In this document: one piece after another, positions 12,483 to 36,052 of the stretch
Numbering within the stretch: the stretch's first letter is position 1
How the letters are laid out: every line of letters starts with the position of its first letter
Made by a program: the position numbers and the translations under genes
NCBI GenBank assembly: GCA_001600635.1
Contig: BCKL01000007.1
Span: forward strand, 768,303-832,302
DNA: 64,000 nt
Direction: 5' to 3'
Origin: Leucosporidium creatinivorum
Lineage: Eukaryota > Basidiomycota > Microbotryomycetes > Leucosporidiales > Leucosporidiaceae
Notes under the pieces: generated by a model
What the model was told of the DNA's origin: nothing
The model's input: only the letters and a program-made list of their open reading frames with translations
Database searches by the model: none

Positions 12483-13594
12483 TTAGCAAGCGTTCCAGCC
12501 GCCATCAATGCTCACTGAGGACGAAGGAGAGGGTCAGCGCCGAAAGTCGAGAGAGGGCTAGCACAGCGCCCACCAAGAGCTCCGTTAATGTAGGAAGAAG
12601 TGTCGGAAGAGAGGAAGAGGGCAAGGTTGGCTACCTCATCAGCCTCGCCGGGTCGCTGCGACGGTACAAGGGCGACCATGCGCGCCATGGTCTCGGCGTT
12701 GAGTAGGGGCGTGTTCATGACGCCGGGGCAGACGGCGTTGCAGCGAATGCCTTGAGCTCCCTGTGGAGATCGCAGAATGTCAGCTGGCGAGTCAGAAGTA
12801 AGGAGAGGATGTCGAAGGGCGAAGGGAAGGTTCGACCGAGATGAAGAACTCACATGAGCGACGGCGGCACTCTTCGTCATCGCAGCGAGAGCGTGCTTGC
12901 TTGCCGCATAAGCCCAGCTGGTCTTCGAACCATGGAAAGTGACCCAACTGCACCAGTTGACGATGGAGCCGAGAGGCTTCGGCGGTTGGCCTTCCACCGC
13001 GGGACGGGGAGACTGAGCCAGCATGACTCGGAGCTGCTCCTGCATCATGACCCCCTGAGCTCGGACGTTAACGTTCATGATGAAGTCGCTGTCGGTCGTC
13101 TCAGAGTCGGCGAAGGGCCCTCGAACCTTGCCGAGCACTCCAGCGCAGTTTCTGGTTGAGAGTACGAGGAGGGGAAGGAGAAGGGAAGAGAGAAGGACAA
13201 GAGGTATCAGCGACGTAGCCTTCTCTCTCTCGACCTCGTGCCTACTTACAGCGCGTAGTCAATGCGGCCGAACTCGGGATCCTTGGGAATGGCTCGAACC
13301 ATGTCGATGACCTCCTGGTCGTTGCAAATGTTCAAGACGACCAGCTTGAGCGCCTTGACGTTGGGACCGATGAGCTTCTGCGTCTCCTTGAGCCCAGCTT
13401 CGTTGATGTCGACCAGAATGAGCTTGGCGCCTGCTTCGCCGAACTTGAGCGCGGTGGCTCGTCCCATGCCGCTGCCAGCGCCGGCTGTAGAGAGGAGCAT
13501 AAGCCTTTGAGCATATAAGATATCCGAGCGAGAGTAGAAGCTCACTGATGAGTGCAACACCGCTCATATCGCCGAGAAAGTTGGAGGTGGACAT
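12483..13594 (-). CDS. Short-chain dehydrogenase/reductase (cluster SDR 1)
   Basis: Five exons (13594-13546, 13484-13250, 13151-12854, 12760-12574, 12514-12483) give 266 aa, the normal length of a classical SDR. Seen in order: nucleotide-binding T-G-A-G-S-G-M-G, an Asp at the end of strand 2 (L-V-D-I-N) favouring NAD(H), the N-C-A-G-V-L-G structural motif, and the catalytic Y-A-A-S-K preceded by W-C-S-W; the C-terminus D-G-G-W-N-A-C is typical. It would oxidise a secondary alcohol or reduce a ketone in the cytosol. It is the outermost member of the cluster and is divergent from the ABM-domain gene, 258 nt away. The substrate cannot be read from the sequence; an alicyclic alcohol fits the neighbours. 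Confidence 0.85.
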
Positions 13595-13852
13595 GCTGCT
13601 TGAGGTGGTGGATAGAGAAGTGGTGAGTTGGGGAAGAGTAGACTGGGGTGGTAGAGATGAATTAGAGGAGGAGAGACGGATTGTGATGATCTTGTAACTG
13701 CCGCTGACGGCGGAGCAGCCGCCCGGATGGAGCTCGGCGATTAGCAGGTTGGCCCGGGTCGAGCGGGCGTGGTGAGGGAGGTGCGGCCGGCGGGGAGAAG
13801 ACAAGTGCAGGGTTGCAGAGAGGCCCAGCTCTGTGCACCATCATCAAGCAAT
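13595..13852. promoter_or_regulatory. Divergent promoter, SDR 1 / ABM gene
   Basis: 258 nt shared by the two head-to-head genes. It contains GCGGCCGGCG at 13783-13792, a CGG/CCG palindrome of the kind fungal Zn2Cys6 regulators bind; the same 10-mer occurs in the OYE/BVMO1 divergent promoter at 16668-16677. Binding is inference. Confidence 0.4.
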
Positions 13853-14492
13853 ATGGTCTTGTGAGTAGCGAGCCCCAAAACTGGCGGTCGCCGAGCCTCG
13901 CTGACCAGCGCCGAATGGCAGTACTCTGGTCGTGCATATGCTCGCGAAGGACGCCGAGAGCGCTTCCAACTTGTCGCAGAAGCTGGTATGTCGTCGATAG
14001 CGCTGGCTAGAGGACGAGGCTAATGAACCGAGCAGGTGGAGCTGGCGCAGGCCTACCGAAAGGACGAAGGAACGATCGACTGGTAAGCGCTCGAAGCTTA
14101 GATGTAGGCAGACAGCCTCACTTACCTATTATGCGCCGCAGGTTCGTGATGAAGGACACGAAGGTAGGCCAGAGCCGTTGCAGCGAAGCGCGACGCCCGA
14201 AACTGAACCTCGGCCCACCAGAACCCGCTCAAGTTCACCATTGTCGAGCGATACGAGGCGCCTGCATGTGAGTTGGCGATGCTACCGTGCTGCTTCTCGT
14301 GCTGACTCGACTTCCCGGTAGCCATCGCCGTCCACAAAAGCGCGTCTCTCTCTTCCGCCGCCGCTGCTGCCCTTCAGCTGACCTCTTGCTCCGTCTGCAG
14401 CGAATCCCATCTTTGCTACCTGGCAGCCCATGTGTGACGCCCTCTTGTCCGAACCCTACGACCTCCGCATTCACAACGAGCTCGATGAGTGA
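13853..14492 (+). CDS. Small ABM-domain (dimeric ferredoxin-like) protein
   Basis: Seven small exons (13853-13860, 13922-13985, 14036-14082, 14142-14163, 14222-14267, 14322-14339, 14401-14492) give about 98 aa, the usual size of a single antibiotic biosynthesis monooxygenase (ABM) domain. Visible family features: T-L-V-V-H-M at strand 1, a helix ending L-A-Q-A-Y-R-K-D-E-G-T-I-D-W-F, the F-T-I-V-E-R-Y-E strand, and N-P-I-F-A-T-W. Such proteins are cofactor-free quinol monooxygenases or stress proteins. The first exon is only 8 nt. To stay in frame, intron 6 must start with GC at 14340-14341 (GCGCGT) rather than GT, so it is either a rare GC-AG intron or damage. The gene is inside the cluster and may act on an aromatic or enone intermediate; function is unproved. 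Confidence 0.65.
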
Positions 14493-14876
14493 AACGCAAT
14501 TGAAGCTTGAACTAGGCCAGCAGCGCGCTGTGAGATACAGAGAGTGCGAGAGAGAACGGAGAGCAGCCGAAAGCGAGTTCGAACGTCGATTTGGTGGAGG
14601 TGGGCGACGAGGTGAGCGAAGGAGGGAAGAGCGAAGCTGGAAACTCGGCGAGCTACATCGAGACTGCAAGTTCGGATTCTGGTCACGGCGAAGTTGAGCT
14701 ACTACTGCTCGCTGTCATGTAAATGCAGGCCTGGTGTGAGAGCTGGTCTGAGAATCTCGAGATAGCAAGCTTCAATTAGAGGCGATTGCAACAGAGGCTC
14801 CTCGAATCATCGCCGAACCCAACCCCACCAACTCGGCGCTTCGTTCAATGGCCTTCACGACATTCCCCCATCATAC
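14493..14876. other. Convergent intergenic region
   Basis: 384 nt between the 3' ends of the ABM gene (+) and the OYE gene (-). Nothing gene-like was seen. Confidence 0.5.
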
Positions 14877-16641
<1,765 letters not shown>

Positions 16642-16961: not shown

Positions 16962-19680
16962 ATGCCTCACTCAACCCTCAACGGACTGAACGGCTCAACG
17001 GCTAGCCACCTTGACAGCTCCTCCAAGCAGCACAATAGCGACAAGACCTCCAACGGTACCAACGGCCACGCCGAACCGCTCTACAGCCCCGAGGGAGTCA
17101 AGGAAGCGCCTTTTAACTCGGGCCGAGGGCGTCCTTTCCGCGTCGTTTGCGTCGGCGCCGGAGCTGCTGGAATCTACCTCGGGATCAAGTTACCTCGTTC
17201 GTTCCAAGCTGGAGCCGTAGACCTACAGGTGGGCCCCCTCCGTTCACTCATACCAGCTCCGCCCGCTGATCATCCCTCGCCTCCCTCTCCTCCCTCTGCT
17301 CATCCGGCTAGATTTACGAGAAGAACCCCAAGTTCTCAGGCTGCTGGTACGAGAACACCTACCCTGGTAAGCGAGCTTCTTCGAGGTGCAGAGAATGAGG
17401 GAGACAGAAGCGCCGAAGCTCAAAACTGACCTTCCTTCTCCCTCAGGCTGCGCCTGCGACATCCCTTCGCAGGTCTACAGCTACAGCTTTGCACCCAACC
17501 CCGACTGGAGTCGTGAGTCGTCCTATTCTTACGGACACGTCCCTTCCTTGCTTCCGACCTGTCGAAGCTGCTCCGGGCGCGCCGAGCTTCCCCCGTCTCG
17601 CGCTCTCGGCTCTCGTCTGAACGCCGGCTGATAATGATCTGGACACAGACTTCTACTCGTCATCGGCTGAGATCCAAGCATACTTCGAGGGCGTCGCCAT
17701 TCGCTATGGTGAGCTCACGACGTCTCGGGCTTAGCTCCGCACGAGAGCGCTGGGCTGACCTTGACCTCCTACTACTCTTCCCTTCGCTTCAGGCGTGCCC
17801 AAGTACGTCAAGCTTGAGCACAAGGTCGTGTCGGCAATTTGGAACGAGGAGCTCGGACAGTGGGCGCTCAAGATCGAGCGACTCGAGGACGGCGCCATCA
17901 TCGAGGACTTCGCCGACGTGCTCGTCAACGCGAGTGGCATCTTGAAGTGAGTGCTCCCTGTGCTCGTCCTTGCTCCTCCTCACGCTGACCACCGCCGCCC
18001 TGCAGCGCATGGAAGTGGCCCGACATCCCTGGCCTACATGAGTTCGAAGGCCCGCTGCTTCACTCGGCGAAATGGGACCACTCGGTCGAGTTCGACAAGA
18101 CGACTACAGTGGGAGTCATCGGCAATGGAAGTAGCGCCAGTAAGTCGCTTGCTTCCGTCTACTCGACGTTCGTTGCTGACTTGCACCTCTGCAGTCCAAA
18201 TTGTCCCGAAGCTCGTTCCTCTGGTCAAGCAGCTCGACACCTTCATCCGCACCAAGACGTGGATCGCTCTCCCATTCACCAGCGGCAAGATCACCTCGGC
18301 AGCCGTCTCAAAGGATGCTACACTCGACCCCATGGCCACTCTGGTCGATCCTCAGACGTGAGCTACCCTCCTACCCTCCTGAGTCTCGTTCGGCGACTGA
18401 TCCCAGCTTTGCGCAGGTCCAACCCCGCTTACACCGACAAGGAGCGTCAGCGCTTCCGAGACGACCCAGCCTACCTCGCTCGGTATCGTTGGGAGATTGA
18501 GCACGAGAACAACGCTCGCTTCACCCTCACGACGAGGAAGGACAGCGAGGGAGCGATGGCGGCGATCCCGAAGCTTGCAGGTGATTCGGCGCGGCCCTCG
18601 ACGGTCTAACACACGATCGCTGACCCTCGACTGCTTGTAGGGATCATGAGAGCGCGACTTGCCAAGAAGCCCGAGCTCGCCGACCTCCTCATCCCCGACT
18701 GGCATGTCGGCTGCCGTCGTCGTTAGTCGTCTGTGACTCGTGTAGCTCGGTCAAGCCGCTGAATCTCTCTCCCGCTCGCAGTCACCCCGGGCGTCGGTTA
18801 CCTCGAAGCGCTGTGCGAGGACAACGTCTCGGTCGTCACCTCCTCGATCCAGCGCGTCGTCGCCGAGGGTATCGTCACCACCGATGGAGTTCTGCATCCT
18901 CTTGGTGAGTTTTAGAGCTGTCTATATCCCGCCCCTTCGAGTGTTTCGATCTGATTGATCTCTCCTCAGATGTCCTCGTCTGCGCGACCGGCTTCGACGT
19001 CTCGACTCGCCCTCACTTTGACGTCGTCGGGCGCGACGGCTACGTGTTCACAGACGAGTGGGCCAAGTCGCCGAAGGGATACCTCACCCTCGCCATGTCC
19101 AACATGCCCAACTACTTCCGTGAGTTTCGCTGCTCTTGCTTTCCTGCCTTCGGTCGTCGAGCTGATTCGTCTTTGTCGGCGCTCATGTAGTCTTCAATGG
19201 CCCGAACGCTCCAGTAGCCAACGGGAGCTTAATCCCTGCCATGGAGGCCGAGGGCGACTACATCATCAAGATGATCGACAAGCTCCTGCGCGAGGACATT
19301 CGCAGCATCTGCGTCAAGAAGGAAGCCGAGGATGCTTTCGTGGAGTACACCGACGCCTGGATGCCGAGGACGATTTGGAAGTCGGGCTGTCGGTCGTGGT
19401 ACAAGGGCGGTACCGTTGATGGCCGAGTGTCGGGCGTCTGGCCAGGCTCCATCCTCCACGTGAGTTCGACCGAGGTTCGCTCGCTGTTCGCTTGCTGATG
19501 TGCTCTTTCTTCCAACAGTTCATGGAGCTGCTCAAGCATCCGAGGTTTGAGGACTACAGCTACACTTACTTGAACCCACGCAACCCGTTCACGTTCATGG
19601 GCAACGGCTACACGCTCGCCGATGTGGACCCCGAGGCGGACAAGGCGCCCTACTTGAAGACGGCGGGCATCGCGGTGTAG
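16962..19680 (+). CDS. Baeyer-Villiger-type flavin monooxygenase 1
   Basis: Thirteen exons splice in phase into 615 aa. The first dinucleotide-binding motif is V-G-A-G-A-A-G-I-Y-L-G; the Baeyer-Villiger fingerprint F-E-G-P-L-L-H-S-A-K-W-D matches F-x-G-x-x-x-H-x-x-x-W exactly; the NADPH motif is V-I-G-N-G-S-S-A-I-Q; and the late A-T-G-F-D motif is present. The Asn/Ser-rich N-terminal 45 residues are an extension outside the fold. It belongs to the FAD- and NADPH-dependent type I enzymes that insert one oxygen next to a ketone to give an ester or lactone. It shares a 320-nt divergent promoter with the OYE gene, consistent with sequential ene-reduction and oxygenation. No signal peptide or PTS1 (ends G-I-A-V). 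The ketone substrate cannot be told from sequence. Confidence 0.9.
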
Positions 19681-20196: not shown

Positions 20197-22988
20197 CTAG
20201 ATAACGTAACGGAAGCGAACTGGACGGTCGAAGGCTCGAAGTCAGCTCGGCGGACAGAAGGACCCACGAGAAGCTCACTGTCGGTGTCCTTCATGGGTCC
20301 ATCGTCGAATACATGATCATGGGGGAGCTGCGCCATCTTGGCGTCGCGGAGCTTGTTCTGGCGGCGCAAGTAGCTGGTTGGGAGCGAGCAAGTCAGCATC
20401 TCGGCGATGTAGGTTGGACCCTCAATGATCGTCGCGGCGTCAGGGTAAGGAGAGCTTACAGCATCATGAATAGAGGGAGGATGCACTCGATAGCCGCTGC
20501 GGTAGCAGAGACAGCTGCACCTGTCCTGTAGCGAGGAGCTTGCGTCTGCGAACGCCGAGGTCAGCGAGAGGCGTCGGAGCAAAGGGGAGGTCGCCTTACA
20601 GTGGGGTAGATCCAAGTGCTGATGATAGCTCCAACTTGAGTCGCCATGTAGGATGCTCCAATCGCGGTTCCGCGCTTGTAGAAGGGAGCCTGGAGAGCAC
20701 GGTCGAGAGCAGGGCGTCAGTCTCCGGGTGTACGGGTGGCCATCGCCACTATAGGGGTAGCTCGGACTCACCGTGTTGTCCACCAACCAGCTCGAGAGAA
20801 CAGGAGACGGCGCGAAGCCCGCGAAAGCCTGGAGGAACAGAGCGCCGTAGCGCGCCGAGCGATTGTTGGTCGAGAGGTTGATGACATAGCCGATGAGTCC
20901 GATGCCACTGCGCAGAGAAGTGCCTGTCAACATAGTTCCCCTCGCTGAAACGGCGCAAGGGCGGGCTAAGAGTGGGCGGCCAGATGCGCGACGCGTTCGC
21001 CGAGCACGAGCAAAGCAGATGAGCTTACCCGAACACGACAAGGTTCCATCCTCTGACGCCATACTTGTCACTGTAGTAGGATGAGATGACCGCTGTGTGA
21101 GCAAGGAGGGAGGTGATCAGCGCTGAGATTGCGGAACGGGCGGAGCTCGGCGCTAGGTCTGCTCGTCAAAGAAGCGGTGCACCACTCACCAACAACGAAC
21201 ACGACCGCATAAGGAGGCACCGAGTGCAATTGAGTCTGAATGGGTGAATAGCCGAACGTTCCGACGATGGTTGGAGCGAACTGTAGCGAAGCGAGGTCAG
21301 TCATCGCCCTCAAAAACAGCTTCAAAGATGAGGAAAGCTGACGTAAGCGATGCCAAAAAGCACCAATCCATTAGCCCAGAACACGGGGAGCATCATGAGC
21401 ATGAAAGGCGACTGTAGAGAGCGCCGAGGTCAGCCCCGAGAAGCTGCTCTGCCTCGGTGAGTCCGTACCTTGAAAGTCGAGACCACCTCGGCCCAGGTGA
21501 AGTAGGCGTCTTGCTCCTCTCCCCTTCCACTACTGTTGTAGCCAGCGCGAAGCGCCTCCTTCTCGTCATCCTTCAGCCACCACGCCTTTTCATAGGAGGG
21601 CGCCATCAGGAAGAAGGCGATGACGGCGAAGATGCAGGTGGCCTGTGAATGGCGACGAGCATCAGTGGTGCCCTGTTGCCTGTCTCCGACCTCTCGAGCA
21701 ACTCACAGCTCCCTCGAGGAAGAAGATCCAGGCTGCGAAGCGGAGATCAAGGTTAGCGCCGAGCGTTGGCTGTAGAGAGGGAACGCCCGAGGTGATGGTG
21801 CAGACAGGCTCGGAGAAGACGCACCCCATCCTGGTTTCCCACCGCGTCCGTCGAGCTTGGAGATGGCGGCGGCGAGAAGGCCGCTGAAGGCGCCTATCAA
21901 GGGGGAGCGCCGAAGGTTAGTCGTAGCTCAGAAGGCTCCAGTGCTCGACAATGTTAAGCTCACCAGCCAGAGATGTAGCGGAGAACAGGAAGCTTCCCCT
22001 GTGGATATCAAGGAAGGCGAGCGTTGACAACAGATGTCAGCAACTCAGTGACGATGCTCGGCGAATACATCTCATCCGCAATGACTCTGAAGCTTACCGA
22101 AGTTGAAATGAGTACCGCGGGTAGAATGTCGACATGTATAGTACGACTGGAGCAGGTAATAGTCAGCACTCGCTGTTCAGGGTGGACGAAAGGGCGAAGG
22201 GCGACTTCTTCGGCGAACTCACTTCCAGCGAGTAGACCTCCCTCGGCAAGTCCAAGCATGACGCGGCAAGCTACGAGGCCGCCATACGAAGTCACAAGTC
22301 CTTGCAGGGTGCACACGAGGCCGAATGAGAGGGTGAGCGCCGGGAGGAGGATGTGGGGACCTGTGAGGGATATTGAGCGGGAGGAGGGCTGCAGTCAGCA
22401 CCGGTGGTCCTCGTCGTTAAAGCCTGGCTCGAGTAAGAGCTACAAAGCAACTCACCGATACGCTTGAGCATGAGGTTGACGGGGATCTACGGGAAGATGA
22501 AGGTGAGGGTCAGCTCGGCTCGGCGAGGGCGAACTGGTCGTAAATCAGCTGGCTAACTTCGGCGAACATGTAGGTTGGGTAGAGGCTAGTCAGTACTAAC
22601 GACCACTGCTTTGACGAGAGGCCCAGATCCTGTAGAGGGAGCGCGTTAGCGAGCAAGAAGCGCCAACGCCGAGGCCGAGCTGCCAAGTCGCCCTTGAGCG
22701 GCGGCGGAGCTATGGGAGCTCAGAGTTCAACACTGCAACACTTAATTTCTGTAGCCCGGCGACCCTCGCGTTGCCGAGATTGGCCTTGTCGAGAAAAGCG
22801 AAGAGGTAGAGGAGCAAGACGACTCCGGTCACGTAGAGGTCGACCTTGCGCATGCCTCGGCGGTAGGCAGGGGTGTTGAGATGCTCAGGGAGACCAGGCT
22901 GCATCGATATGTCGGCGGTAGGGCGAACATTCTCGAGCTCTTGAGAAGAGCCCTTGTCGAGGGAGGAGGTCTCATTCTTGTTGGCCAT
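20197..22988 (-). CDS. Dal5-type MFS carrier of the cluster
   Basis: About 15 exons give roughly 500 aa with the 12-helix MFS pattern. Family marks: Y-L-F-A-F-L-D-K-A-N-L-G-N-A-R at helix 1, I-P-V-N-L-M-L-K-R-I, G-L-A-E-G-G-L-L-A-G at the helix 5 region, Y-S-D-K-Y-G-V-R-G-W-N between helices, and a charged C-terminus. This is the allantoate permease (anion:cation symporter) family, which mostly moves organic acids and related anions across the plasma membrane. Intron 1 should start right after the Lys codon, but the base pair there is TT (22745-22744) instead of GT; no other donor keeps the frame. The fragment at 1-322 shows GT at the same site, so the gene seems to have lost its donor recently and may be mis-spliced. 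Start ATG at 22988 is the first in frame. Confidence 0.85.
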
Positions 22989-23611
22989 CCTGTGGTGGTT
23001 CTGTTGGTTGTTGAAGAGAGCCGAGGGGCTCCAGAGGGCCCCAGTTTGTACTTGCTTTCGAACGGAGGTAAGCGCAGGAAGCAAAGCCGGCAGAGAGCTC
23101 GTTCTCCCGTTTCGACCGGCAGGCGGCCTGCCAAACCGGTCTGGGCGCTGGTCCTGGGCTCTCAAATGATCACGCTCGCTTGACAGTTGTACCGAAGCAT
23201 CGCAGAAGCTCATCAAGATCAAAGGGGGCCCTCCGTAATGCTCAGCTACTATCTGCGCGACGGCCGTTGCTCGACCGAACTTACCCCTGCGAAAGAGATC
23301 AGGCGCTGTGGGGACAGCTTCTCGGACACCACGTGAGAGAGAAGAGCTTCTAGAACTTTCTGCCTGCACTGAGATTGCTGCAGAGAGAGCGGAGCTGTCG
23401 AGATTCGGGTTACTTTGCTGCGCCGAGCTTTCGCCCCGAGCTTTCGCCGAACTCTCGTCTCCCGCTCTCATGTGCATCGATGATCACGATGGTCGAATAC
23501 AGCTCACTAGCAAGATAAGAATACAGTCTCTCCCTCTTCCCAGGTTCTTCACCCAATGCAAGCGAAAAATCAGTCTCGGAAGTCTGAACGGAGCACTCTC
23601 GGTCGACTCAC
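22989..23611 (-). promoter_or_regulatory. Promoter of the MFS carrier with a strong palindrome
   Basis: 623 nt between the carrier start and the regulator's stop codon. At 23118-23132 lies a perfect 7-nt inverted repeat around one base (GGCAGGC-G-GCCTGCC), flanked by CCGG at 23116-23119 and 23136-23139. CGG/CCG-containing palindromes are the usual targets of Zn2Cys6 proteins, and the regulator gene is adjacent. Binding is inference. Confidence 0.45.
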
Positions 23612-26600
23612 TCAGTAGCCGTTGGGAGCGACGAGATTGAACAGATGCTGCCAGTCGTCGAGGACGGCGGCGGAAGGCATAACGAGCCCTGGTCGATTAT
23701 TGAACTGGTTGAGAGTCTCCCTTGCTGCTTCAACGTCGAATCCGAGAGCGCCGGGCGGATCTTCCGTTCCCAGATTGTCGAAGAAGGAGAAGTCGAGCGG
23801 TGGCTCCTGCTGTAGAGCGTCCGGTAGAAGAAGTGGGAGTTGCGGAAAGGAGTTGAGAGAGAGCGGCGAGAGGAGGGATGAGTTGAGGAGCTCGGCGTCA
23901 CGATCGCCGAAGTTTGAGGGATCCGGCGCCGAAGATTGGAGGGGCAAGGGAGGCGACGGGAGGGCAAAGTCTTGGACGGAGTAGTTGCTGCTAGAGGACA
24001 TTGACGAGGAGGAGGGTACACCGTCGGCGTTGGGCGAGCGCAAGCGGTGGGAGATGGTGCGGAAGATGGCGGCGGCGGGCGACGTTGCTCCTGCGTTGTT
24101 GGGGTCACGTCGACGCGGTAGGAGGAGCTGGTCGATGACGGCTACCACCTGCATCGACAGGTCCCGTACTCCGCTACTGGCGTCCCCCTGAGCTCCACGC
24201 ACGTAGAACGAACGAGCTCGGAGCATAAGCTCGCGTTTGCCGCCGTCGCCGCCTCCTTCCTCGTTGAGCAACGCCATAAAGAGGCAGAACACGGCGGAGA
24301 GTCCGTACGACCAGCACCACCAGAGCTGTTTGAGAGCGAGAGCGAGGAAGCTGGTCAGCGCTCTGATGAAAGGCGCCGAGCTGGCGAACTCGGGCGAAGC
24401 TCTCCCGGAGCGCAGCGAGCAATCGAGGGAAGACTCACATGTTCGAGATTTCCGTCATCGCTTCTCAAGTGCTGTAGTCCATCGCAGACGGCGGTAGAAG
24501 CACGAAGGCACGCCGACGACGATTGCTGGAAGCGCTGGTCGCGGAAGCCTCGCATGAAGTAGGGCCCTGTCGAGATGAGGGCGTTGTTAGGTAGCTTCTT
24601 GAGATCGCAGAAAGGGGTACATACGGTGGATACGAGTGACGCGGTTCTGTAGGATCATGAGGAGCAAAGCACGATGATCTGTTGCGGGGAAAGATGAGCG
24701 ACCCGTCTCGGCGTTGACCAGAGGCGAGGAAACGACTTACAGGGTCGTCGCTTCGGGTTCGAATCCTGGCGAGTGAGCTGGATGATTGAGATCTCGGCTT
24801 GGAGAGCAGCGTCCATCTCCTTGACTCGCTCGTAAGCACTCGGCTCGGCAGCGTCGGCGTCTCCCAGTTGCTGAGTTGCCGAGTGACGCCCGATGACAAG
24901 CTTCATCTGCGGAGTGGGGTGGCCGTCAGTACAGAACTCTACGTCGATTTGCGTACGTTGTCAAAGACTCACCCTGGTGAAAGCGAGATCAGTCAAATAA
25001 TGAGGAGGTCGTTCCTTGGCGATGAGATGTAGTCCCAAATCCTCATCGTCGACCTGTTGAATGGCATTAAAGAGTCAGCGCAGTGCAGAGGTTGGGTTTG
25101 AGAGGTTGAGCTCGAGACTTGGGCTCCACGCACGTTCAGCGGCGGCTCAGTATCGTCTGCGCGAAGGGGTAGCCGGTGTGCGATGATTAGCAACAGGCTC
25201 GGTCGACAGAGAGAAGCTGTAAGCTCACAGCTACCTGGAGAGCATTGGCCAATGGATGCTCCCGAGCAGAACAGAAGATCGAAGGAGCACAGCTGGGTCC
25301 AAATGCGTTTGGCGAGCTCCCGACGAAGGCAGCATTCCTGTAGGGGGAAGGCGGGATCTGGCGATGGCATCTTGGTGGGGTCCGAGCCAAGGCGGTGGAG
25401 GCCGAGGAGTTGGGCGAGTCGAATCGCAGCCGATAGATACACGTAGAAGGACGAAGCCGACTGAAGCGAAGGCGCGCTGCTCGGCGCTTCCCGCTGCAGG
25501 GCGAGCTTGAGGAAGAGAGCTTGTATGACACGCACCTGGGGCTTGCCAGCCCAGTCTATGAGGATTTAAGTAACATATAAGTATGATGTTCGTGTGCGGC
25601 GAGATCGAGCAGGCGCACCTGCGGCCGTCAACGCCTGCTCCGAGGCAGCGATCCACGATTCGGGCAAGATCTTGACCTCGGAGTCGGGATAGTGACGAAG
25701 CACATCCTTCGAGCGAGTAGGTCCCAGAGTCGACACCGCCCAAGCAAGGACCTGTGACACAAGCGAGTCAGTCGACGACCGCCGAGGTTCCCAGATTCGA
25801 ACTTCTGCTGTACGCTGTAGTATGTAGCGAGCCAAGCAGGGTCGATCCTACTTGCACATCCATTTGCTACCGAGTCCCACAGCTCTTGCGTCTCCGCGAC
25901 AAAGGTCGGCTTGTGAAGAACCTGTGGTCGGCGACCAGTCAGCGCGCGAGCAAGCGACGAAGAGGGTGGCTCAGGGCTTACGTTATAGATCCATCCGATG
26001 TCGCCGCTGAAAAACTCCTCTACGAGAGCTTCAGACACTGCACGCTCAGGCAGGTAGTCGAGTAAGGTGGATTGATGTTGCGCTCGAGCGAAGACCGAAC
26101 GTCCAGGCGCCTTCAAGGAGGCCTGTCAGCGTTGAGGCAGGATAGAGGCATCCGTGTAGTTCACCTTGGATGATAACAGAATGGTGGTGAAGCGCCCTGC
26201 CTCTGGGATGAGGGCTATCGGCGTCTCACGAGCCTGTCGAGAAGACCGAGCTCAGCGCGGCAAGAGGACTAACGCCGACGCCGAAAGCCTACCACAGTGC
26301 GAGTCGACATCTGTCCGATGCATGGTAACTGAGTGTTGCGACCTAGCGTGCCGTACTGACTTCGACCAAGAGCGAGGTTCTCGAGCTCGTGAGCCGCTCG
26401 TTCGGCTTCGGCGTCGGATGGATCGTAAGGAGGGGTGAGAGGCTCGGTGGAAGATGGAAAGGACGCGAAGCCCGATGAGGAGTATTCGGGAGCACTTTGA
26501 CTGGTGGGAGGGAGGAGAGAGGCCAAGCGTGGCAAGGGAGGAATGACAGCCGCCGAGCTTTGATCCGAAGCCGGTTGAGGAGCGGGACCGCTTGAGGAGA

Positions 26601-27078
26601 CCTGCTGCTCGAGGGAAGCTAGTCGACGCTGCATACGATTGAACTGGGCGATGAAGTCGGTTGATGGTGGCTCTGGGGCTTGTCGGGAGGGAGGAGGATC
26701 CCACGAGCAGAGTGCCTTCTCGTCTCTCTTGATGCAGGCCTCGCAGCCGCTGGTGTCCTTATTACATTTGGTCTTGCGCCTTGTGTTGAAGTAAGGCGTG
26801 TCAGCGGCGTCGAAGAGGAGCAAGGAGGAGGAGAGGCAGGCGCGAAGGGGAAGGAGAGAACTTGAAGGTCACCTCTGACACGGTCTGCAGGACTGGAGAC
26901 AGCGCCGGATGAGCTCGGGTACGTAGCTATACGTCTAAAGATCACCTACCATCTTTGCGCGATTGCGGCGACGCTTCAATGGCTGTAGAGGTCCTCCGTC
27001 GTCGCCGTCGTCGTCTGCCTTAGCACGCTTCGTCTCCTCGACTCGGAGGTCTCCTTGATGGCTGCTGCAGGAGGACAT
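23612..27078 (-). CDS. Zn2Cys6 transcription factor of the cluster
   Basis: About 13 exons give some 800 aa. The zinc cluster is complete once two introns are removed: C-R-P-C-Q-R-R-K-T-K-C-N-K-D-T-S-G-C-E-A-C then I-K-R-D-E-K-A-L-C, i.e. C-x2-C-x6-C-x6-C-x2-C-x8-C. The first Cys pair is encoded by a 20-nt exon (26873-26892). A basic K-R-R-R-N-R-A-K stretch precedes it and a linker with a coiled coil (F-N-R-M-Q-R-R-L-A-S-L-E-Q-Q-V) follows. The middle has the fungal-specific factor domain (L-D-Y-L-P...H-K-P-T-F, then Y-V-Y-L-S-A-A-I-R-L-A-Q-L-L-G-L-H-R-L-G). The last 200 residues are acidic/Ser/Pro-rich, probably activating. Its position inside the cluster makes it the likely pathway regulator. 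Exon edges in the middle part are less certain. Confidence 0.85.
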
Positions 27079-27432
27079 GCTGTACAATATCGCTGGACGT
27101 TGGGCGCGATGGTAACGAGAGCACAGGCGAGTTGTGGCGGAAGCAGAAGAAGCGGGGAGCAGAGGTGGGCCCCACGAGATGGGAAGGTTCTAACTGCTCA
27201 ATCGAGACCGACCTCGGCATAGCCGTCGTTCTTTCACCCGTTACGTCCGGGCTGCTGTCTTGTGCAGCAGGTCATGAACCAGCTGGCGCTGGCGATGCGT
27301 TTGACGTTGAGCGTGTGGGCCGAAGCTCGACCGAGGTTCGCTCTCATCGCCGAAATTCACAATCGTCGATTCGGCGTGCACTCATAGCAAAGTATTGAGC
27401 TCCATAGCATCTCCAAATCACCTAACTCCACC
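27079..27432 (-). promoter_or_regulatory. Upstream region of the regulator gene
   Basis: 354 nt between the regulator start and the P450 stop codon. It must hold the regulator's promoter and the P450 terminator. No reading frame of interest; no clear palindrome noted. Confidence 0.4.
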
Positions 27433-29728
27433 TCAGACGCCGAACGACTCCAAGTTGGCGATGACCTTGGCCGTCTGAGCGAACCGAGGCGTGAAGTCGA
27501 CCTCGAATGGCAGCGGGTGAGCTGAGGGCGGCAGCATGAGTCAGCGAGGGGCGTTGAAGACTTCAGAGAAGTATAACTCACTCGTGACAGCATCGTCGAA
27601 GGCCTTGGGTGAGAGGTCGAGAGGGATGGGCTTTCCTGCCTCGTCGCAAGCGGGTTTGATTATAAACGCCCACATGATACTGGCACTGTTGATGAACACA
27701 CTGCGATCGGCGACATGCAGACCAGCGCACACACTGTCAAGCGGAGGTTAGCGAGACTACTAGAACGAGGGAGAGCGCCGCCAAACGCACCGACGTCCAA
27801 AGCCGAACTGGGTGTGCTTGAGCTCGCGATTGATGGTGGTGGTGCCATGCTGCTTGATCAGCCAGCGAGAAGGCTGGAACTCCTCGGGATCGGTGTAGAG
27901 CGCAGGGTCACGGTGGACGGACCTGTCGAGTTCGAATTCTCGGGTCAGTCAAAGCCGAGCTAACCTCGTTGGAACACCCCCGTTCAGCTGACGTCTGTTG
28001 AACGTCCACCTTCTCTCCAAGTAGTCTTCCGCAAGAGATTTGATGCTTACCACGTGTTTCCAGTGATGATAGCGCCCTTGGGAATGACGAAGCCTTCGTA
28101 AGAGAACGTCTCGGTGACAGCGTGAGCGAGCCCAGCAGGGAGGACGGGCCTCCACCTGTAGGACTCCAGCACAAAGGCTAGTGTCGATGAATAGTGGGCG
28201 AGGGAGGAGGAGTGAGCGACGAAGCGAGGGGAAGGGAGGGCGAGCGAGCGAGAAGGAAGGGGGAGCGAAAGAACAAGTCAGCCCATGCAGAGCTATAGAA
28301 GTACAGCGGCGGACGCACCCCATGTCTCTGGTAGATCCTCCCAATCGTCGAAGGTAGGAGCTGCGCGAAGAGAAGAGATGTCAGCCACAAATCGCGAGCG
28401 GAGCTCGAGCGCCGAACTACTCACGACGGTCACGGCCAACCACACGATCAAGCTCGTCTTGCACAACCTGGAGCTGCTCAGGGAAAGCCACGGCAGCGAG
28501 GAAGACGATCGTGAGCGCCGAGACGGTGGTGTCGCTTCCGGCGCCGAACAGGGAGCCGACGAGGTAAGCCGCCTCATCGTCGTTGAGCTTGTACTCGGCT
28601 TGGTTCTCGACGATGTAGGAGGCGAAGCAGGGTTCAAAGTCCGTGGCGGTTTGCTGGAGACATCGGCGATTAGCGAGATTCAGCGAGCAGGATCTCGAGA
28701 GACGACTTGCCATGCGAGTGCGAACGGCTTCATACTGCTCCTTGAAGAGGGTCAACTCCTCGCGATGCCAGGCTCGGTGTTGACTGAGGTAGCCGGGAAC
28801 GTATCGAAGCCAAGGGTGCGAGTCGATGGCAAAGTGACCGGGTTGGGCAGCGGCGTGGAAGCGATTGAGGCAGGCGACGACCTTGCGAATTTCCTCCGAC
28901 TGGTAGGTGCTGCGCTCATTCTTGCCGTAGGCGAGTGACATGATGACGGTGGCGGCGTAGCTGTTGGAGGGAGGGCTTTGGTCAGCTTGGGTGTACTCCA
29001 CGAAGAGAAGGCGAGGCTTGCGAGCGGATGTGATTTTTGAACAGGCGAGGAGAACCGAGGATGTCCTTCAGCACTTGATGAGAGGCAAGGAGTTGACGAG
29101 GTTGATACGTCTCCGACTTGAGAGGCGTGAGGTTGACGTGGAGAGCCCTGCGAGCGATGGAAGATCAGTCTCGGCGCGACATGAAACGTTCGGAGAGTCG
29201 ACGGCTCACTTGCGAAGACGACGCCACTTGTCACCGTAGCCGACGACACCAGTACGCATATCTCCCGAGAGGACCTCTCCCGCAATGACCGACTTGGGGC
29301 GATCGGAGGTAGCGTTGGACTTGCGCTCCCTGCTCGGCGAGGACAAGTCAGCTCGAGCGAGGGCTGGAGGAGGAGTTTTAGGCTTACATGAGATCTTGAA
29401 CAGCCTTGTATGTAGTACAGATGATGAAAGGCTGGTTACCGAGCCATACAGTCACGACGGGACCTGCGTCCTCGAAAGTCAACCTCGGCGACGGCAAGAG
29501 AAAAGACGGAGAAATGAGCGCACCGTACTGCTTGCCGAGCTCATGAAACCATAGCCACATATGAGAAGGGATCTTGTTGCCAGCGTATCCGGGAGGAGGT
29601 CCAGGCGGAAGGCTGCGAGTGTCGCGACGAGGGCGAAGAGCAAAGGCGAGACTCAGCCCGACGAGGAGGACGGCGGCGAGCATCTCCCGCTGCCCCAGAG
29701 CGTAATGAGATGTGACTTGGTCGGCCAT
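27433..29728 (-). CDS. Cytochrome P450 monooxygenase of the cluster
   Basis: About 10 exons give roughly 520 aa, normal for a fungal microsomal P450. Seen in order: a hydrophobic N-terminal anchor (A-A-V-L-L-V-G-L-S-L-A-F-A-L), the P-P-G-P-P-P hinge, the I-helix oxygen-activation motif G-A-G-S-D-T-T, the K-helix E-x-x-R (L-E-S-Y-R-W-R-P), and the haem loop F-G-F-G-R-R-V-C-A-G with the Cys ligand, split by an intron between R and V. The T-P-R end resembles CYP64-like fungal enzymes, a loose match. It would sit on the ER and need a reductase coded elsewhere. It is divergent from SDR 2 (184 nt), fitting hydroxylation followed by alcohol oxidation. Substrate unknown. Confidence 0.88.
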
Positions 29729-29912: not shown

Positions 29913-31033
29913 ATGTCGTCGCTATCGCTAGGAAACATGAATGGTGTAGCTTTGTGCGCTCACTCACCTTCTCGGCGCCGAGCACGAACCGTGAGCTGAT
30001 TCTGAATCATCGCAGGATCACCGGAGCTGCGAGCGGAATTGGAAGGGAGTGCGTTTTAGTGAGTGCTCGCGCAATTAAGGACGAAAGCGAGAGCTCACCA
30101 GAGCATGCAGGCGTTTGCTCGGTGCGGAAGCAAGCTCGCGCTCGTAGATCGGGACCTCCCTGGGCTACAGGCCCTTAAAAGACATCTTGACCTTCCCGAG
30201 GAGCACATCATTATCGAGCAAATCGACGTGACCAATATCGTCGCCCTCGCTCACTTCATACGCACGATCCCCGAGCGCCTCGGCGGCATCCACTTCCTCA
30301 TCCAATGCTCCGGCATCCTCGGCCCCGACTACGACCGCCCGCTGCACGAGCTGCCCGAGAAGCACTGGAGCCTCGTCCTCGACATCAACCTCAAGGCGCC
30401 CGCCCTCATCACGAGCGAGGTCGTCCGCCTGATGCTCAAGCAGGAGCCGCTGCCGTCGCTCTTGGAGAAGGAGGAGGGTCGCAAGGCCGGCACCTGCACC
30501 CGTCGAGGCGTCATCATCAACCTGGGGAGCTCGGCGTCGCTTCGAGCGAGGTCGGCCTCTGGCGCGCCGTACATCACGAGCAAGCATGGGCTGATCGGCT
30601 TGACCAAGGTGAGTCCTCGGCGGTTCGGCGAAGGCGAGGCGAGTCCATGAGAGCTGATGTGAGCTTGTGCAGGTTACCGCCGTGAGCTACGGAGGTCAAG
30701 GGATCCGATGCAACGCATGTAAGCCCTCGCTCGGTCGTAAGAGGCTGCAGGGGAAGCTCACCTCGGCCTCGAACAGTGGCTCCGGGCTTCGTCGCTACGC
30801 CGTTGGTAGCGGGCATCGCCTCCAAAGTAGAGCAGGTCGCTAGGGAGATTGTACCTCAGCGACGAGTGGCCGAGGCTTGCGAGATAGCGGATATGGCGCT
30901 CTTCCTCTGCTCGGAGCGGGCAAACTACTCGAACGGCTCCATCAGTAAGTGTCCGCCGAGGTAGGAGTACAGATCTGAGCTCACCTGCTTTCGATCTGCA
31001 GTCACCATGGATGGCGGCTGGAGCGCTACTTGA
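29913..31033 (+). CDS. Short-chain dehydrogenase/reductase (cluster SDR 2)
   Basis: Six exons (29913-29953, 30016-30058, 30102-30608, 30673-30718, 30777-30944, 31002-31033) give 278 aa. Motifs: T-G-A-A-S-G-I-G, L-A-L-V-D-R-D (Asp for NAD), C-S-G-I-L-G, S-S-A-S for the catalytic Ser region, Y-I-T-S-K for Tyr and Lys, and the L-A-P-G-F-V motif. The C-terminus V/I-T-M-D-G-G-W-S-A-T parallels SDR 1 (S-I-D-G-G-W-N-A-C), and both genes place an intron just before this tail and after the same N-terminal G-V-A-L leader, so they are likely paralogues. A 30-residue insertion (E-E-G-R-K-A-G-T-C-T) before the catalytic Ser is unusual. Divergent from the P450. Confidence 0.87.
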
Positions 31034-31584
31034 GCTCGACAAGGCTGCTGCTGCTGGGGAGCTCGAGAGATGGCGAGAGGGCGAGAGAAAGGGAGCGGAG
31101 GTCGAAGCGCGAGTAGTGGAAGAGCGACGAAGGGTCGGCTCAGAGCAGAATCATGCTGTAGCAAGGTATTCTAATCGCCTCGAGTTGCTGTAGCGAGGTA
31201 TTGACGATTGCGAAGCGAGCAGGAGGAGCGCAAGGAGCGAGGAGCGCAAAACCGCAGGTTGATCTCGTACGCTACACCTCGTTCTTTCGCCGACGCTTTC
31301 GCTGAGGATGCTGTACTCGACTCGGCTGCTCGCTCGCTACCACCCCAGCCTTCCCTCGCTGTAGAGCTCTCTCTGAGCTACTCTTCGACGCGTACCTCTC
31401 CCTCTCCCTCTCGATCCGCTACCTCGGTTCTGCACGGCTCGCTGAATAGCTGCACCGCCTCTCTATCCTACTACATACCTCCCGCTCGCCGCTCATCGGA
31501 AGGACCGGCCGGACTTCGGGAGTAGCCGACTAGACAGCCCGACGAGACGCCGCCCATCTCTCCCTCAGCACACGAACCAGCAAG
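31034..31584 (+). promoter_or_regulatory. Upstream region of the hydrolase gene
   Basis: 551 nt without a convincing exon. The end is pyrimidine-rich with an A-rich ATG context (CAGCAAGATG), as for a promoter and 5' UTR. Confidence 0.4.
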
Positions 31585-32820
31585 ATGAGCCATCCCGACG
31601 AGAAGCTGCACAAGCTCGACCCCGAAGTCCTCGCTGCCTACACTGCAACTCCCTGGATCGTCGCCAACGAGACTACAGTGTCTGCGATCCGCCAAGCGGG
31701 AAGCATCTCGGCAGCTGCAGCCGTTCCGGAGGATGTCGAAGTGCTGGACGTGGACCAGGATGGCGTACAAGGGAAGCTGTATCGCAAGGTCAACGCGCCC
31801 CAGAACTGTCCATGTCTTGTGTGGTTCCATGTGAGTTGCTTCGGCGACTGCTCAGACCGACCGAGCGAGAGCTGACTTGACTTAACTACAGGGCGGCGGC
31901 TACTTGTTCGGGACACCTGCCATGCATGCTGGTCTCTACCTTCAGTTCGTGGAAGCTGGAGTCGCCGTCTTTGCACCTCGCTATCGGCTCTCGCCCGAGC
32001 ATCCGTTCCCTGCTCGTAAGTAGCGAGGAGAGCCTTTTTCCGAGCCGCGCTGACCTCCCGACCCTACCATAGCAAACGAGGACGCTCTACGCGCCTGGGA
32101 CTGGATCGCCAGCGGTGCAGGACGCCGCCTCGGCGTAGCGCCGTCTCGACTCGCCCTCGGGGGAACCAGTGCTGGTGCGTTGGCTCGCTCTTCTTCTTCT
32201 CCCAGCAGGACGCTGACCTTCATGTGCACAGGTGGAGGACTCGCCGCAAGCACGGCTCTTCAGCTGCGTGACCAAGGCCATGTGGTGCAGCCCTCGGCGC
32301 TCTTGCTCAACATTCCCTGGCTCGCCAGACCGCCCAAGGAGGAGACTATCGAGACCTCGTGGAGCTCGGTCAAGTTTGATCGCATTTGGTGCGTCTCTGG
32401 TCTCTACCGAGTCGATTCCTCGAGCTGACTGCAGCACAACAGGTCGCTCGCCAACTGTCAATACGCCGCCGAAGCGTTCTGCCCTCCCGACACCCTCGAC
32501 TCGAACAGTTACGCCTTCGCTGCGGATCATCCATCGCTCCATAGTCTCCCTCCTACCATCGTCAGCGTCAGCGAGCTCGACATCCTGCGAGACAGCGGGA
32601 TCGACTTTGCGATGCGAGTCATGCGCGACAGCGAGAAGGGTGCTGAGCTGCATGTGAGTCCAGTGCGATTTGCCATCAACCTTTCGATGACCCTTCTCTT
32701 CCTTGACAGGTCTATCGAGGAGCTTACCATGGATCGAGCGGCGCCGTCCCTTCGGCCGCGGTCTCTCGAGCTCAGGATCAAAATCAGGTTCGCTTCCTCC
32801 GCGCCGCGCTCGACTTGTAG
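31585..32820 (+). CDS. HSL-family alpha/beta hydrolase (esterase or lactonase)
   Basis: Six exons (31585-31830, 31892-32015, 32073-32174, 32232-32388, 32443-32653, 32710-32820) give 316 aa. Motifs are those of the hormone-sensitive-lipase (GDXG) family: oxyanion H-G-G-G-Y, Y-R-L-S-P-E-H-P-F-P-A, nucleophile elbow G-G-T-S-A-G-G-G (Ser in place, Thr where GDSAGG has Asp), acid in S-E-L-D-I-L-R-D and His in A-Y-H-G. The Gly-Thr-Ser elbow is a known minor variant. The monoterpene lactone hydrolase of Rhodococcus carveol/menthol degradation belongs to the same family (established). In this cluster it would open the lactone or ester made by either Baeyer-Villiger enzyme; that is inference. Cytosolic: no signal peptide. 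The stop at 32818 directly follows F-L-R-A-A-L-D-L, a normal family end. Confidence 0.88.
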
Positions 32821-33358
32821 CTCATCAGTCGTCTGAAATCGTTTCTCTTATCTCGATTTGTCTGCCGCTGCGGTACGGGTGCTGGAGGACTCGACGAGCG
32901 TCAACGACCGGCTTGCTCTTCGCCGAATCCTCGCCGAGATCCACTCGCTCGCTCTTTCTGCTGCTCTCCTCCGCCCGTTCTCGAATACAAGCCATCGCTT
33001 GCATCACATCGTTTACGCGACACTTGGAGACGTTCGCGCACCGCCTGCTGGGATCTAGGGGTAGGTGGCTTCGAGCCTCGGCGCCTCGCTCGTCGTCGCC
33101 GAGCCGCCTGCTAACACTCACTCGCCCGTAGATCCGGTCGCTCGGCACCCGGACGGTTTGTGTTCATTCTTCAGACGCCCCGCTTATCTTTCTGCTCCCC
33201 ACAAACTCCACAGAGCCGACTGGGCGCTACACTCTCGATACTAACTCCGTTCGTCCGAAGGGTGCTCTTGACAAGAAGCGTTCGAGAGCTTCCTCTTACA
33301 CTCCTCATCCTATAACACAGCAAGCACTACATCCATCAACCACCCGGCAACCCACACC
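32821..33358 (+). promoter_or_regulatory. Upstream region of BVMO 2
   Basis: 538 nt. A 66-codon open stretch at 32858-33058 has no family features and no consistent splice partners, so I treat it as chance. The 150 nt before the start are AC-rich (CACACCATGG context). Confidence 0.4.
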
Positions 33359-36052
33359 ATGGTCTCTAGCAACACCAACGGTCACTCGAATGGTCACTCA
33401 AACGGCAGCAACGGCCACTCGAACGGGAGCAACGGTCACTCGAACGGAACCGCTCCCTACGACTACCTGCGCGAGCCTGGCTTCCAGCAGACCCATAAGC
33501 GCATCATCATCGTCGGGGGAGGCATGTCGGGCATTCAGATGGCCTACACCCTCAGTCGCAAGCACAAGAACGTCGAGTTTGTCATCTGTGAGCTTCTCGT
33601 CGGCAGTTCGAAGGATGAAGAGCTCGAGCTGACTATGTCATATTGCTCTGCAGATGAAGAGTGCGACTCGGAAGGCGGTACTTGGGTGCGTTCGACGGCT
33701 CGGCTCATCTTCGAGCTCGGCGATCACTCGAGTTCAAGAGCCAAGAGCTGACTTGTACCACCCATAGACTCGCAACCGCTACCCTGGAGTCCAATGTGAC
33801 GTCTACTCGGCCGTCTACCAGTTCACCTGGGCTCCTAACCCCCGCTGGAGCAAGATCTACGCTGAGGGCGGCGAGATCCTCAACTGTGAGTTACGTCTCG
33901 TCTGAGCCGCCTAGCGAACTCTTCGCTGACTTTCTGACCTACAACAGACATCAAGAACACCGTCTCCGACTTTGGTCTCTCCAAGTTCTTCCGTCTCAAG
34001 CACAAGGTCGTCGGCGCCACGTTCTCCGAAGCCAATGGCAAGTGGTCGGTTGACGTCCAAGGTCCCGGAGGAGTCTTCACCGACACCGCCGACATCTTCA
34101 TCTCTGCTATGGGCTGCCTCAACCTCTGGAAGTGGTGAGTGACATTTTCTGTCGAGATCGCCCCTCGGCGGAGCCAGAAGGGGCAGCCGAAATAGGCAAC
34201 GAGCTACAGAGCACCACTGACCTCTCGATCTTTAACCGCAGGCCTCAGCTTCCCGCCCGCGAGACCTTCAAGGGCACCCTCCTCCACTCGGCTGCCTGGC
34301 CCGAGGGCGGTAAGGAGCTGCTGGCCGGAAAGCGAGTCGCCGTCATCGGCAACGGCGCTTCTGCGGTCCAACTCGTACCGTCCATCGTCGGCACGGTGGA
34401 CAAGCTCGACTTCTTCTTCCGCACGGCCGGGTGGATGGGTGGCAAGCCGCGTAAGCTCAACCGCTCCCTCGCCGCCGAAACCCGAGTTCACCTTCTCTCG
34501 CCCCTACTCAGCTCCAGGAACTCAAGTCCTCAACTCCGACCACACGCCTACCTTCCACTACACCGAGGAGCAGAAGCAGAAGTGGGCTGAGGATCCCGAG
34601 TCCTTCATGAAGTACAGGCAGGCTATCGAAGCCGAGTACGATCATGGCCTCTGGGGCGCCCTCAACCGCGACAACCAGTATCAGCACACTCGCCGTGCCG
34701 CCATGCAGGCGCGAATGGAGGCCAAGATTGCCGACCCCGAGCTCCGCAAGAAGCTCATCCCCGACTTTCCTGCTGGATGCCGAAGGGTAACGCCCGAAGG
34801 TGAGCTGCGGCGCTGTTCCGTCTCCAAAAGCTTCTCGCTGAGCTCTTTCCCTCTCCCGCTATACAGATGGCTTTCTCGAAGCGCTGCAAGTCCCTCAGAC
34901 CGAGGTCCTTAACACTCCTCTCGCCGCCTTCACCGAAAAGGGCCTCCTTCTGGCCACCGGCGAGGAGCGAGAGTACGGTACGCTCCTTTTTAAGCATCTC
35001 TCAAGCTCTGAAGAGCAAGTGCTGATCCCCCTCGTCCCTTGCCTAGACGTCATCATCGCTGCTACCGGTTTCGAGACCAACTTCCGCCCTCCCTTCCCCA
35101 TCCGAGGTCTCGACGGCGTTGATTTGGCTCAGGTGAGTCTCACGCTTGCGCTTACAGGGAAGAGTAGGAATCTAAGCCGACTTCTCACGCTGCAGAAATG
35201 GACCGAGGACTATGCCCAGTCGTTCGGCGGAGTTGTTGTCGATGGCTTCCCCAACTATTTCAGTTTCATGGGCCCAGCGTCTCCCGTAGGACAAGGATCA
35301 ATCTTGTCCGCTATCGAGGTGAGTAGACGACGCAGCCCGGCGAGCGTTCGACACTCTCAAGTCGAAACCGCCTGCGCCGAGCTTGCAACTCTCGCTGACC
35401 GAGGTTTGACCACAGATGCAAAGTCACTACTTCTCGCAACTCCTCAACATCGTACAAGAGTCCCGCATCAAATATCTCGCCCCGAAGGCGGAGCGTGTGG
35501 CCCAGTACAACGAGCACCTCCAATCGCTCATGCCCGACCTCGTTTGGACGTCGCCCTGCAACTCGTGGTTCAAGGATGGGGCGACCGGTCGCATCGTCGC
35601 GGGATATCGTGAGTCATAGCCTCTTACCCGCCTCTCCTCAGCGGTCGGGTGTAGCGTGGAGCGCACCTCTCGTCATCGCCGAGCACCGAGCTGACCGAAT
35701 CCTCTCCTCCCTCGCCACATCAGCTGGCAGCATGTGGCACTGTGAGCATTCTCAAATCTAAGTACTGTCACTATTGAAGCTTTTGAGCTGACCCTGACTC
35801 TACTGCAGACTCCAAGACGATTGCGAAGCCGAGGTTGGAGGACTTCGACATCACCTGTGCGTTGCTTCCAGCTTCCTTCGCCATTTAGACGCCGAGCTGA
35901 CTCGTCTTCGGTCCACAGATCAGCACAAGAACCCCTACACTTATCTCGCCAACGGATGGGTCGACGGAGAGGAAGACTTCGCCTACACGAAGCCCGAAGC
36001 CGGCCTCGACTCTCTCCCCTGGACACGATACCTCGCCGCTGGCGCTCAGTAG
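33359..36052 (+). CDS. Baeyer-Villiger-type flavin monooxygenase 2
   Basis: About 13 exons give close to 600 aa. It opens with N-G-H-S-N-G-S repeats (33377-33450), then V-G-G-G-M-S-G-I-Q for FAD, R-Y-P-G-V-Q-C-D-V-Y, the fingerprint F-K-G-T-L-L-H-S-A-A-W-P (exact F-x-G-x-x-x-H-x-x-x-W-P), V-I-G-N-G-A-S-A-V-Q for NADPH and A-T-G-F-E-T. The 61-nt intron at 34451-34511 is required to reach the frame with F-H-Y-T-E-E-Q-K. It resembles BVMO 1 in layout (same motif order, C-terminal Y-T-Y-L-x-N-x and N-G-Y/N-G-W) but sequence between motifs differs a good deal, so they are old paralogues likely acting on different ketones or sides of one molecule. Last gene of the cluster. Confidence 0.9.

Follow-up and report, generated by a model that had tools for sequence, protein, structure and literature searches.

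A compact run of ten genes in the basidiomycete Leucosporidium creatinivorum raises the question of whether the encoded proteins act together and, if so, on what kind of compound. The run occupies positions 12483-36052 of a 64,000-nucleotide stretch, the window throughout this text (assembly GCA_001600635.1, contig BCKL01000007.1, here C7; C7:768303-832302), and encodes, in this order, a short-chain dehydrogenase/reductase (SDR), an ABM-like protein, an Old Yellow Enzyme (OYE), a Baeyer-Villiger monooxygenase (BVMO1), a Dal5-like carrier, a Zn2Cys6 regulator, a cytochrome P450, a second SDR, a hydrolase of the hormone-sensitive lipase (HSL) type and a second Baeyer-Villiger monooxygenase (BVMO2). 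The reading that we favor, with a probability of roughly 0.6, is that of a regulated catabolic cluster with two Baeyer-Villiger cuts, one made by a BVMO2-hydrolase-SDR module similar to that of the demethoxyviridin (vid) cluster and the other by the first SDR, the OYE and BVMO1. We prefer this reading because the locus has its own regulator and a carrier, the catalytic motifs of its enzymes are intact and no scaffold enzyme turned up in what was scanned; a preliminary description of this DNA had likewise proposed a fungal catabolic cluster, and the same features support it.

A gene finder that allows for introns, trained on 264 kb of this genome (the window plus a further 200 kb), yielded nine models over the cluster, the hydrolase and BVMO2 being initially fused in a single model that separated when the two were run apart. 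Splice sites were corrected by hand where a model cut a conserved motif, and after these corrections none of the 10 models contains an internal stop. No further gene was predicted between the ten within 12483-36052, the intergenic gaps are 184-623 bp long, and Pfam matches exceed the cut-off for eight of the ten proteins (adh_short_C2 twice, Oxidored_FMN, FMO-like twice, MFS_1, p450 and Abhydrolase_3). Every gene in the cluster contains introns, with 5-17 exons per gene, and the GC content (0.57-0.61) is similar to that of most of the window except for 4-10 kb. The ten genes lie side by side with no unrelated gene among them, as had been claimed, with stop-free models that reproduce the outer ends at 12483 and 36052; the several divergent pairs proposed earlier are three, g4/g5, g6/g7 and g10/g11 (Table 1).

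Table 1 Genes of the cluster and other features of the locus, in window coordinates
Feature	Position	Strand	Details
g4, classical SDR (SDR4), 266 aa, 5 exons	12483..13594	-	GxxxGxG, NCAG, YxxxK; Pfam
g5, ABM-like protein, 92 aa, 6 exons	13853..14492	+	PF03992 E=3.3e-4, 21.2 bits, cut-off 23.1
g6, Old Yellow Enzyme, YqjM-like, 436 aa, 8 exons	14877..16641	-	PF00724 2e-61
g7, BVMO1, type I (predicted), 615 aa, 13 exons	16962..19680	+	FEGPLLHSAKWD, GAGAAG
g8, Dal5/allantoate-permease-like MFS carrier, 498 aa, 17 exons	20197..22988	-	PF07690 3.2e-30
g9, Zn2Cys6 regulator, 786 aa, 13 exons	23612..27078	-	six-Cys pattern at residue 45
g10, cytochrome P450, 510 aa, 11 exons, one GC-AG intron in the model	27433..29728	-	PF00067 1.4e-63
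g11, classical SDR (SDR11), 275 aa, 6 exons	29913..31033	+	Pfam; nearest solved relative levodione reductase 4.5e-30
g12a, HSL-type (Abhydrolase_3) hydrolase, 316 aa, last exon uncertain	31585..32820	+	PF07859 1.4e-45
g12b, BVMO2, type I (predicted), 589 aa, 13 exons	33359..36052	+	FKGTLLHSAAWP, GGGMSG
CCGTTNCGNCCGG, candidate regulator site (weak lead)	23107..23119	+	119 bp upstream of g8
CCGTTNCGNCCGG, candidate regulator site (weak lead)	27238..27250	+	160 bp upstream of g9
4.2 kb dispersed repeat at the right edge of the cluster	36195..40360	+	carries g13; copies elsewhere on C7
Broken 5' piece of another g8-like carrier gene	1..323, extending 195 bp beyond the left end of the window	+	523 bp alignment

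Judged by their sequences, g7 and g12b are type I Baeyer-Villiger monooxygenases, with a predicted activity that converts ketones to esters. Both proteins contain the type I fingerprint, which we take to be FxGxxxHxxxW[P/D] (FEGPLLHSAKWD in BVMO1 and FKGTLLHSAAWP in BVMO2), and each has two Rossmann GxGxx[G/A] motifs (GAGAAG and GNGSSA in BVMO1, GGGMSG and GNGASA in BVMO2). In alignments to cyclohexanone monooxygenase (CHMO), both proteins match the catalytic pair, Asp and Arg, as judged by the CHMO residues that we take to be catalytic. An active-site Arg and Asp are named for BVMOs in the available part of PMC4966971. BVMO1 matches CHMO (4e-59) and steroid monooxygenase (4.9e-56), and BVMO2 matches CHMO (1.3e-50); the fingerprint, the two Rossmann motifs and the catalytic Asp and Arg are common to these enzymes and both BVMOs of the cluster. 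Unlike CHMO, however, the cluster BVMOs have low-complexity N-termini and, in the loop that follows the GP of the C-terminal part, are two residues longer; an insert of this kind is reported for phenylacetone monooxygenase and one fungal BVMO in the accessible portion of the same source (PMC4966971), and the inserts in the cluster enzymes would fall at the same place. The two BVMOs are 33% identical to each other and the two SDRs 36%, and therefore neither pair is the product of a fresh duplication.

The best solved relative of the OYE (g6) is 7blf (4.5e-87), with AfvA (8j59, 7.7e-83), which we take to be an enzyme of the aflavarin cluster, and YqjM (1z41, 2.8e-71) also among the matches. For both SDRs, levodione reductase is the nearest solved relative (9.1e-34 for g4), and cyclohexanol dehydrogenase is among the matches as well (9.7e-30 for g4). 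The P450 (g10) retains AGSDT, ESYR (the ExxR motif) and FGFGRRVCAG. The hydrolase (g12a) contains HGGG, GTSAGG, DILRD and AYH, that is, the Asp and His motifs are included, and its closest solved relatives are the lipase 7wol (1.1e-39) and, second, heroin esterase (6.1e-38). The family (PF07859) agrees with the earlier assignment to the HSL type, and the motif is GTSAGG and not GDSAG; together with the proximity to heroin esterase, this fits cleavage of an ester formed from a side-chain ketone no worse than the opening of a lactone.

The Zn2Cys6 regulator belongs to a fungal type. In g9, the pattern CxxCx6C...CxxCx6-8C is complete (CRPCQRRKTKCNKDTSGCEACIKRDEKALC, residue 45); no Pfam family was matched by full-length g9 at E<=0.001, and Zn_clus (PF00172) reached 15.8 bits against a cut-off of 21 when 574 of the 786 residues were scanned. 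The contiguous enzyme genes are accompanied by a regulator and a transporter of their own, as in a fungal catabolic cluster, and neither the cluster itself nor the flanking genes and exons covered by the Pfam scan (seven flanking genes whole or mostly, and six more by one or two exons, with g22 left out) yielded a polyketide synthase, non-ribosomal peptide synthetase or terpene synthase. The immediate neighbors, a RING zinc-finger gene on the left and, on the right, g13 followed by a P5A ATPase, look unrelated to the cluster.

We infer the order of the steps, the division into two blocks, the direction of transport, the class of substrate and the co-regulation of the genes as follows. The regulator g9 would govern a dedicated cluster, and the carrier g8 would probably import an organic anion. 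The P450 would add oxygen and an SDR would oxidize the product to a ketone, and two Baeyer-Villiger rounds would break carbon-carbon bonds. In the left block (SDR4, the ABM-like protein, the OYE and BVMO1), a conjugated ring ketone would be saturated and then lactonized. The co-directional SDR11, hydrolase and BVMO2 (29913-36052) would take off a keto side chain, the ketone being converted to an ester, the ester to an alcohol and an acid, and the alcohol to a new ketone. This second module has a counterpart in the vid cluster, where, as shown by deletions and assays in the available part of PMC5943271, the BVMO VidF, the esterase VidP and the dehydrogenase VidH lead from a ketone through an acetate ester and an alcohol to a ketone; a BVMO, an esterase and an SDR likewise occur within one fungal cluster here, as g12b, g12a and g11, by Pfam assignment. 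From the resemblance of the enzyme families, the substrate is likely a terpenoid or steroid-like ketone.

The preliminary description had pointed to the breakdown of carveol, carvone and menthol in Rhodococcus. The corresponding alternative is a pathway in which an SDR, an OYE, one BVMO and a lactone hydrolase would work in line, as in Rhodococcus erythropolis DCL14. The limonene-carveol-carvone route of that bacterium is as stated, with a dehydrogenase, an enone reductase, one BVMO and a lactone hydrolase according to the available part of PMC4097962, and all four enzyme families are indeed found together in the cluster. Such a pathway, however, needs one BVMO and one dehydrogenase, whereas the cluster has two of each, which fits two Baeyer-Villiger rounds, and the hydrolase is of the GTSAGG type close to heroin esterase. 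We therefore regard carvone and menthol as one candidate substrate among several, given the single BVMO of the carvone-type pathway, and a p-menthane pathway as improbable; a steroid-like or larger terpenoid-like compound, carrying one ketone in a ring and another on a side chain, is at least as good a match.

The bacterial comparison bears on the same alternative. Of at least 583 bacterial relatives, the best 80 BVMO loci were kept and searched for neighbors with tblastn at E<=1e-6; because these loci are 3.4-19.7 kb long, the counts are lower bounds. An SDR was found near the BVMO at 16 loci, a hydrolase at 9, and an OYE and a P450 at 1 each, with no carrier and no ABM protein at any of the 80. 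SDR and hydrolase were combined at two loci, more than one BVMO place was seen at six, and the OYE, SDR and hydrolase that a p-menthane pathway brings together were combined at none (0/80). The cluster thus does not reproduce any common bacterial operon among the loci seen. Recent transfer from bacteria was also considered and ruled out by the introns throughout, the GC content like that of most of the surroundings, the neighbors that are not shared, and the low identities of the best plasmid matches listed for the three proteins searched (36.7% for BVMO1, 36.1% for BVMO2 and 42% for the OYE). Viral contigs gave 12 pattern matches, none of which is a relative.

P450, SDR, OYE, BVMO, MFS and Zn2Cys6 proteins are also found in fungal biosynthetic clusters, which counts in favor of another alternative, namely that the ten genes tailor a secondary metabolite, with its scaffold supplied from elsewhere and the carrier as its exporter. 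The position of AfvA among the OYEs close to g6 points the same way, as does vid biosynthesis itself, in which a BVMO, an esterase and a dehydrogenase are employed (PMC5943271, in the part available). We nevertheless consider a tailoring cluster unlikely, given that there is no scaffold enzyme in the cluster or the flanking genes and exons scanned and that the carrier, although below the cut-off, resembles carriers for uptake of organic anions. The carrier also bears on a third alternative, detoxification in place of nutrition, with a plant or fungal ketone as the target; a terpenoid from a plant would be one example and a mycotoxin like zearalenone another. There is precedent in two Grosmannia BVMOs that are credited with terpenoid detoxification in the available part of PMC8120277, and in the yeast Apiotrichum mycotoxinivorans, for which a BVMO followed by a carboxylesterase is proposed to open zearalenone (PMC7416605, in the section available). 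Yet ten genes with a regulator and an uptake-type carrier exceed what detoxification would need, and no ABC exporter is among the ten, so that we give this explanation only a slim chance.

Several observations weigh against the catabolic cluster that we favor. A dyad test on seven promoters gave a best p of 1e-5 among 21163 dyads, with no shared motif significant after correction. The candidate regulator site CCGTTNCGNCCGG, a weak lead, was picked post hoc and has eight copies in the genome, two of them in the cluster, compared with 21 for the reversed control pattern; TGAGGTACAC has two copies in the window, both within the g6/g7 promoter. The carrier g8 scores below both NCBIfam cut-offs (TIGR00893, 174 of 395 bits; HpaX, 113 of 615 bits), those of bacterial models against which its scores show resemblance only and which we take to represent carriers of the Dal5/ACS anion:cation symporter type, and no solved relative of g8 was found at 1e-5. 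The g8 model has a non-consensus first splice donor (window 22730-22745), which may impair the carrier, and six bases downstream there is another GT that preserves the frame. The last exon of the hydrolase model is uncertain, the solved relatives listed for the P450 are mostly animal P450s that are uninformative on its substrate, and the ABM-like protein, the domain of which falls just short of the Pfam cut-off, has no clear role in the pathway. The OYE, SDR and MFS families, finally, are broad.

The own genome (27.7 Mb in 63 contigs) was searched with seven cluster proteins (BVMO1, the OYE, the HSL-type hydrolase, the P450, BVMO2, the MFS carrier and SDR11, with SDR4, the ABM-like protein and the regulator left out), and no second intact copy of the cluster was found with these queries. 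Besides the cluster and a relic of the carrier gene described below, the matches are scattered, weaker relatives of the OYE, the hydrolase, the P450, the carrier and SDR11. Among the matches listed, there are at least five cases of two different families within 50 kb of each other and none of three, but on C6 a BVMO-, an SDR- and an MFS-like match are found within about 61 kb; these counts use one hand-copied position per place, and the carrier beside the BVMO on C10 is absent from the list. There are 11 other BVMO/FMO-like places in the genome, three of which had their neighborhoods read gene by gene, mostly by eye. No cluster-like partner genes were seen by eye around C2:1615k and C1:1507k. 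The BVMO at C10:417k adjoins a 2-oxoglutarate-Fe(II) (2OG-Fe(II)) dioxygenase and a carrier that is 28% identical to g8 (C10:413001-423000, positions 3101-10000 of that segment), possibly a second small oxidative cluster.

At its right edge, 143 bp past BVMO2, the cluster is followed by a dispersed repeat, of which there are three near-full-length copies, 89-90% identical: the one in the window (36195-40360), an inverted copy at C7:763690-767837 and a third at C7:699966-704129. At least 50 matches to the repeat were found (40 of 55 candidates scored). Among the matches listed, all 10 that are longer than 1.6 kb are on C7, which has 13 repeat places spaced 25-155 kb apart, and shorter pieces, mostly of about 0.55 kb (query about 3563-4118), are on C1, C2, C3, C5, C6, C8, C9, C14 and C30; this bias of the spread to C7 is odd. 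No Rfam match was found in 36195-40540. The gene carried by the repeat, g13 (36311-37976, minus strand), encodes a low-complexity protein of 479 aa with no trusted Pfam family and has three copies along with the repeat.

The relic of the carrier gene, at window positions -195 to 323, is 12 kb to the left of the cluster and about 150-270 bp beyond the matching end of the inverted repeat copy. It aligns with g8 (22968-22450) in inverted orientation over 523 bp at 87.6% identity, and given that the protein match ends at about residue 118, the gene is incomplete. The fragment has diverged about as much as the repeat copies (88.6-89.8% identical), which fits one event: DNA at the edge of the cluster probably underwent an inverted duplication and the rest of the copy was then lost, such that part of the cluster was once duplicated and decayed. 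A transposed fragment is a possible alternative; no cluster remnant was found in the 1.6 kb examined beside the third repeat copy. The relic and the repeat provide a handle on the copying and loss of such clusters. More tentatively still, and with some doubt, the whole locus could represent an undescribed fungal pathway in which one terpenoid- or steroid-like molecule would undergo two successive Baeyer-Villiger cuts, encoded in a compact regulated cluster; next to a C7-enriched 4.2 kb repeat, part of this cluster would once have been duplicated as an inverted copy, of which a carrier fragment is all that is left.

The repeat that abuts the cluster and the broken carrier fragment beside another repeat copy show that rearrangement has happened here, as would be the case had unrelated genes been joined by chance or by repeat-driven rearrangement. 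Of the 78 background gene models outside the cluster, however, only four are similar to a cluster protein at E<=1e-3, namely one P450 and three carriers, of which one contains the g8 relic, and the odds of ten such genes in succession by chance are therefore negligible; with a share of 20% and 8000 genes, both assumed, about 0.0008 such runs of ten family members would be expected. We accordingly consider an accidental assembly highly implausible.

How new is the cluster? The preliminary description knew of no fungal cluster with this make-up, and none with exactly this gene set was found described in the titles and opening lines of abstracts searched in the open-access literature, nor was any Pucciniomycotina gene cluster with Baeyer-Villiger enzymes; the claim has to be softened, however, because fungal clusters with BVMO modules are already known, and it is the exact ten-gene set that looks new. 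Being compact and equipped with its own regulator, the set lends itself to direct testing, and biocatalysis would gain an ene-reductase, a hydrolase and two new fungal BVMOs. One known system for comparison is that of the ascomycete Grosmannia clavigera. This fungus has a terpene-responsive cluster, which at 30 genes is larger than the one described here (PMC3680317, available part), and two BVMOs, CMQ_7007 and CMQ_6956, that are implicated in terpenoid detoxification (PMC8120277); the same 2021 review, as far as its accessible text goes, presents the Grosmannia enzymes as the only fungal ones characterized in terpenoid detoxification and the purpose of clustering of detoxification genes as elusive. 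In the vid cluster, compared by enzyme family, VidH-VidP-VidF corresponds to SDR11-hydrolase-BVMO2, but that cluster is biosynthetic, comprises 19 genes with six P450s and one BVMO named, and acts on a pregnane side chain, all according to the available part of its description (PMC5943271). Genes of the vid cluster have been expressed heterologously, with feeding, in Aspergillus oryzae. The Rhodococcus erythropolis DCL14 route, as far as the available part of PMC4097962 describes it, shares four enzyme families with the cluster, a likeness at the family level, and differs in being bacterial and in having one BVMO in the carvone branch.

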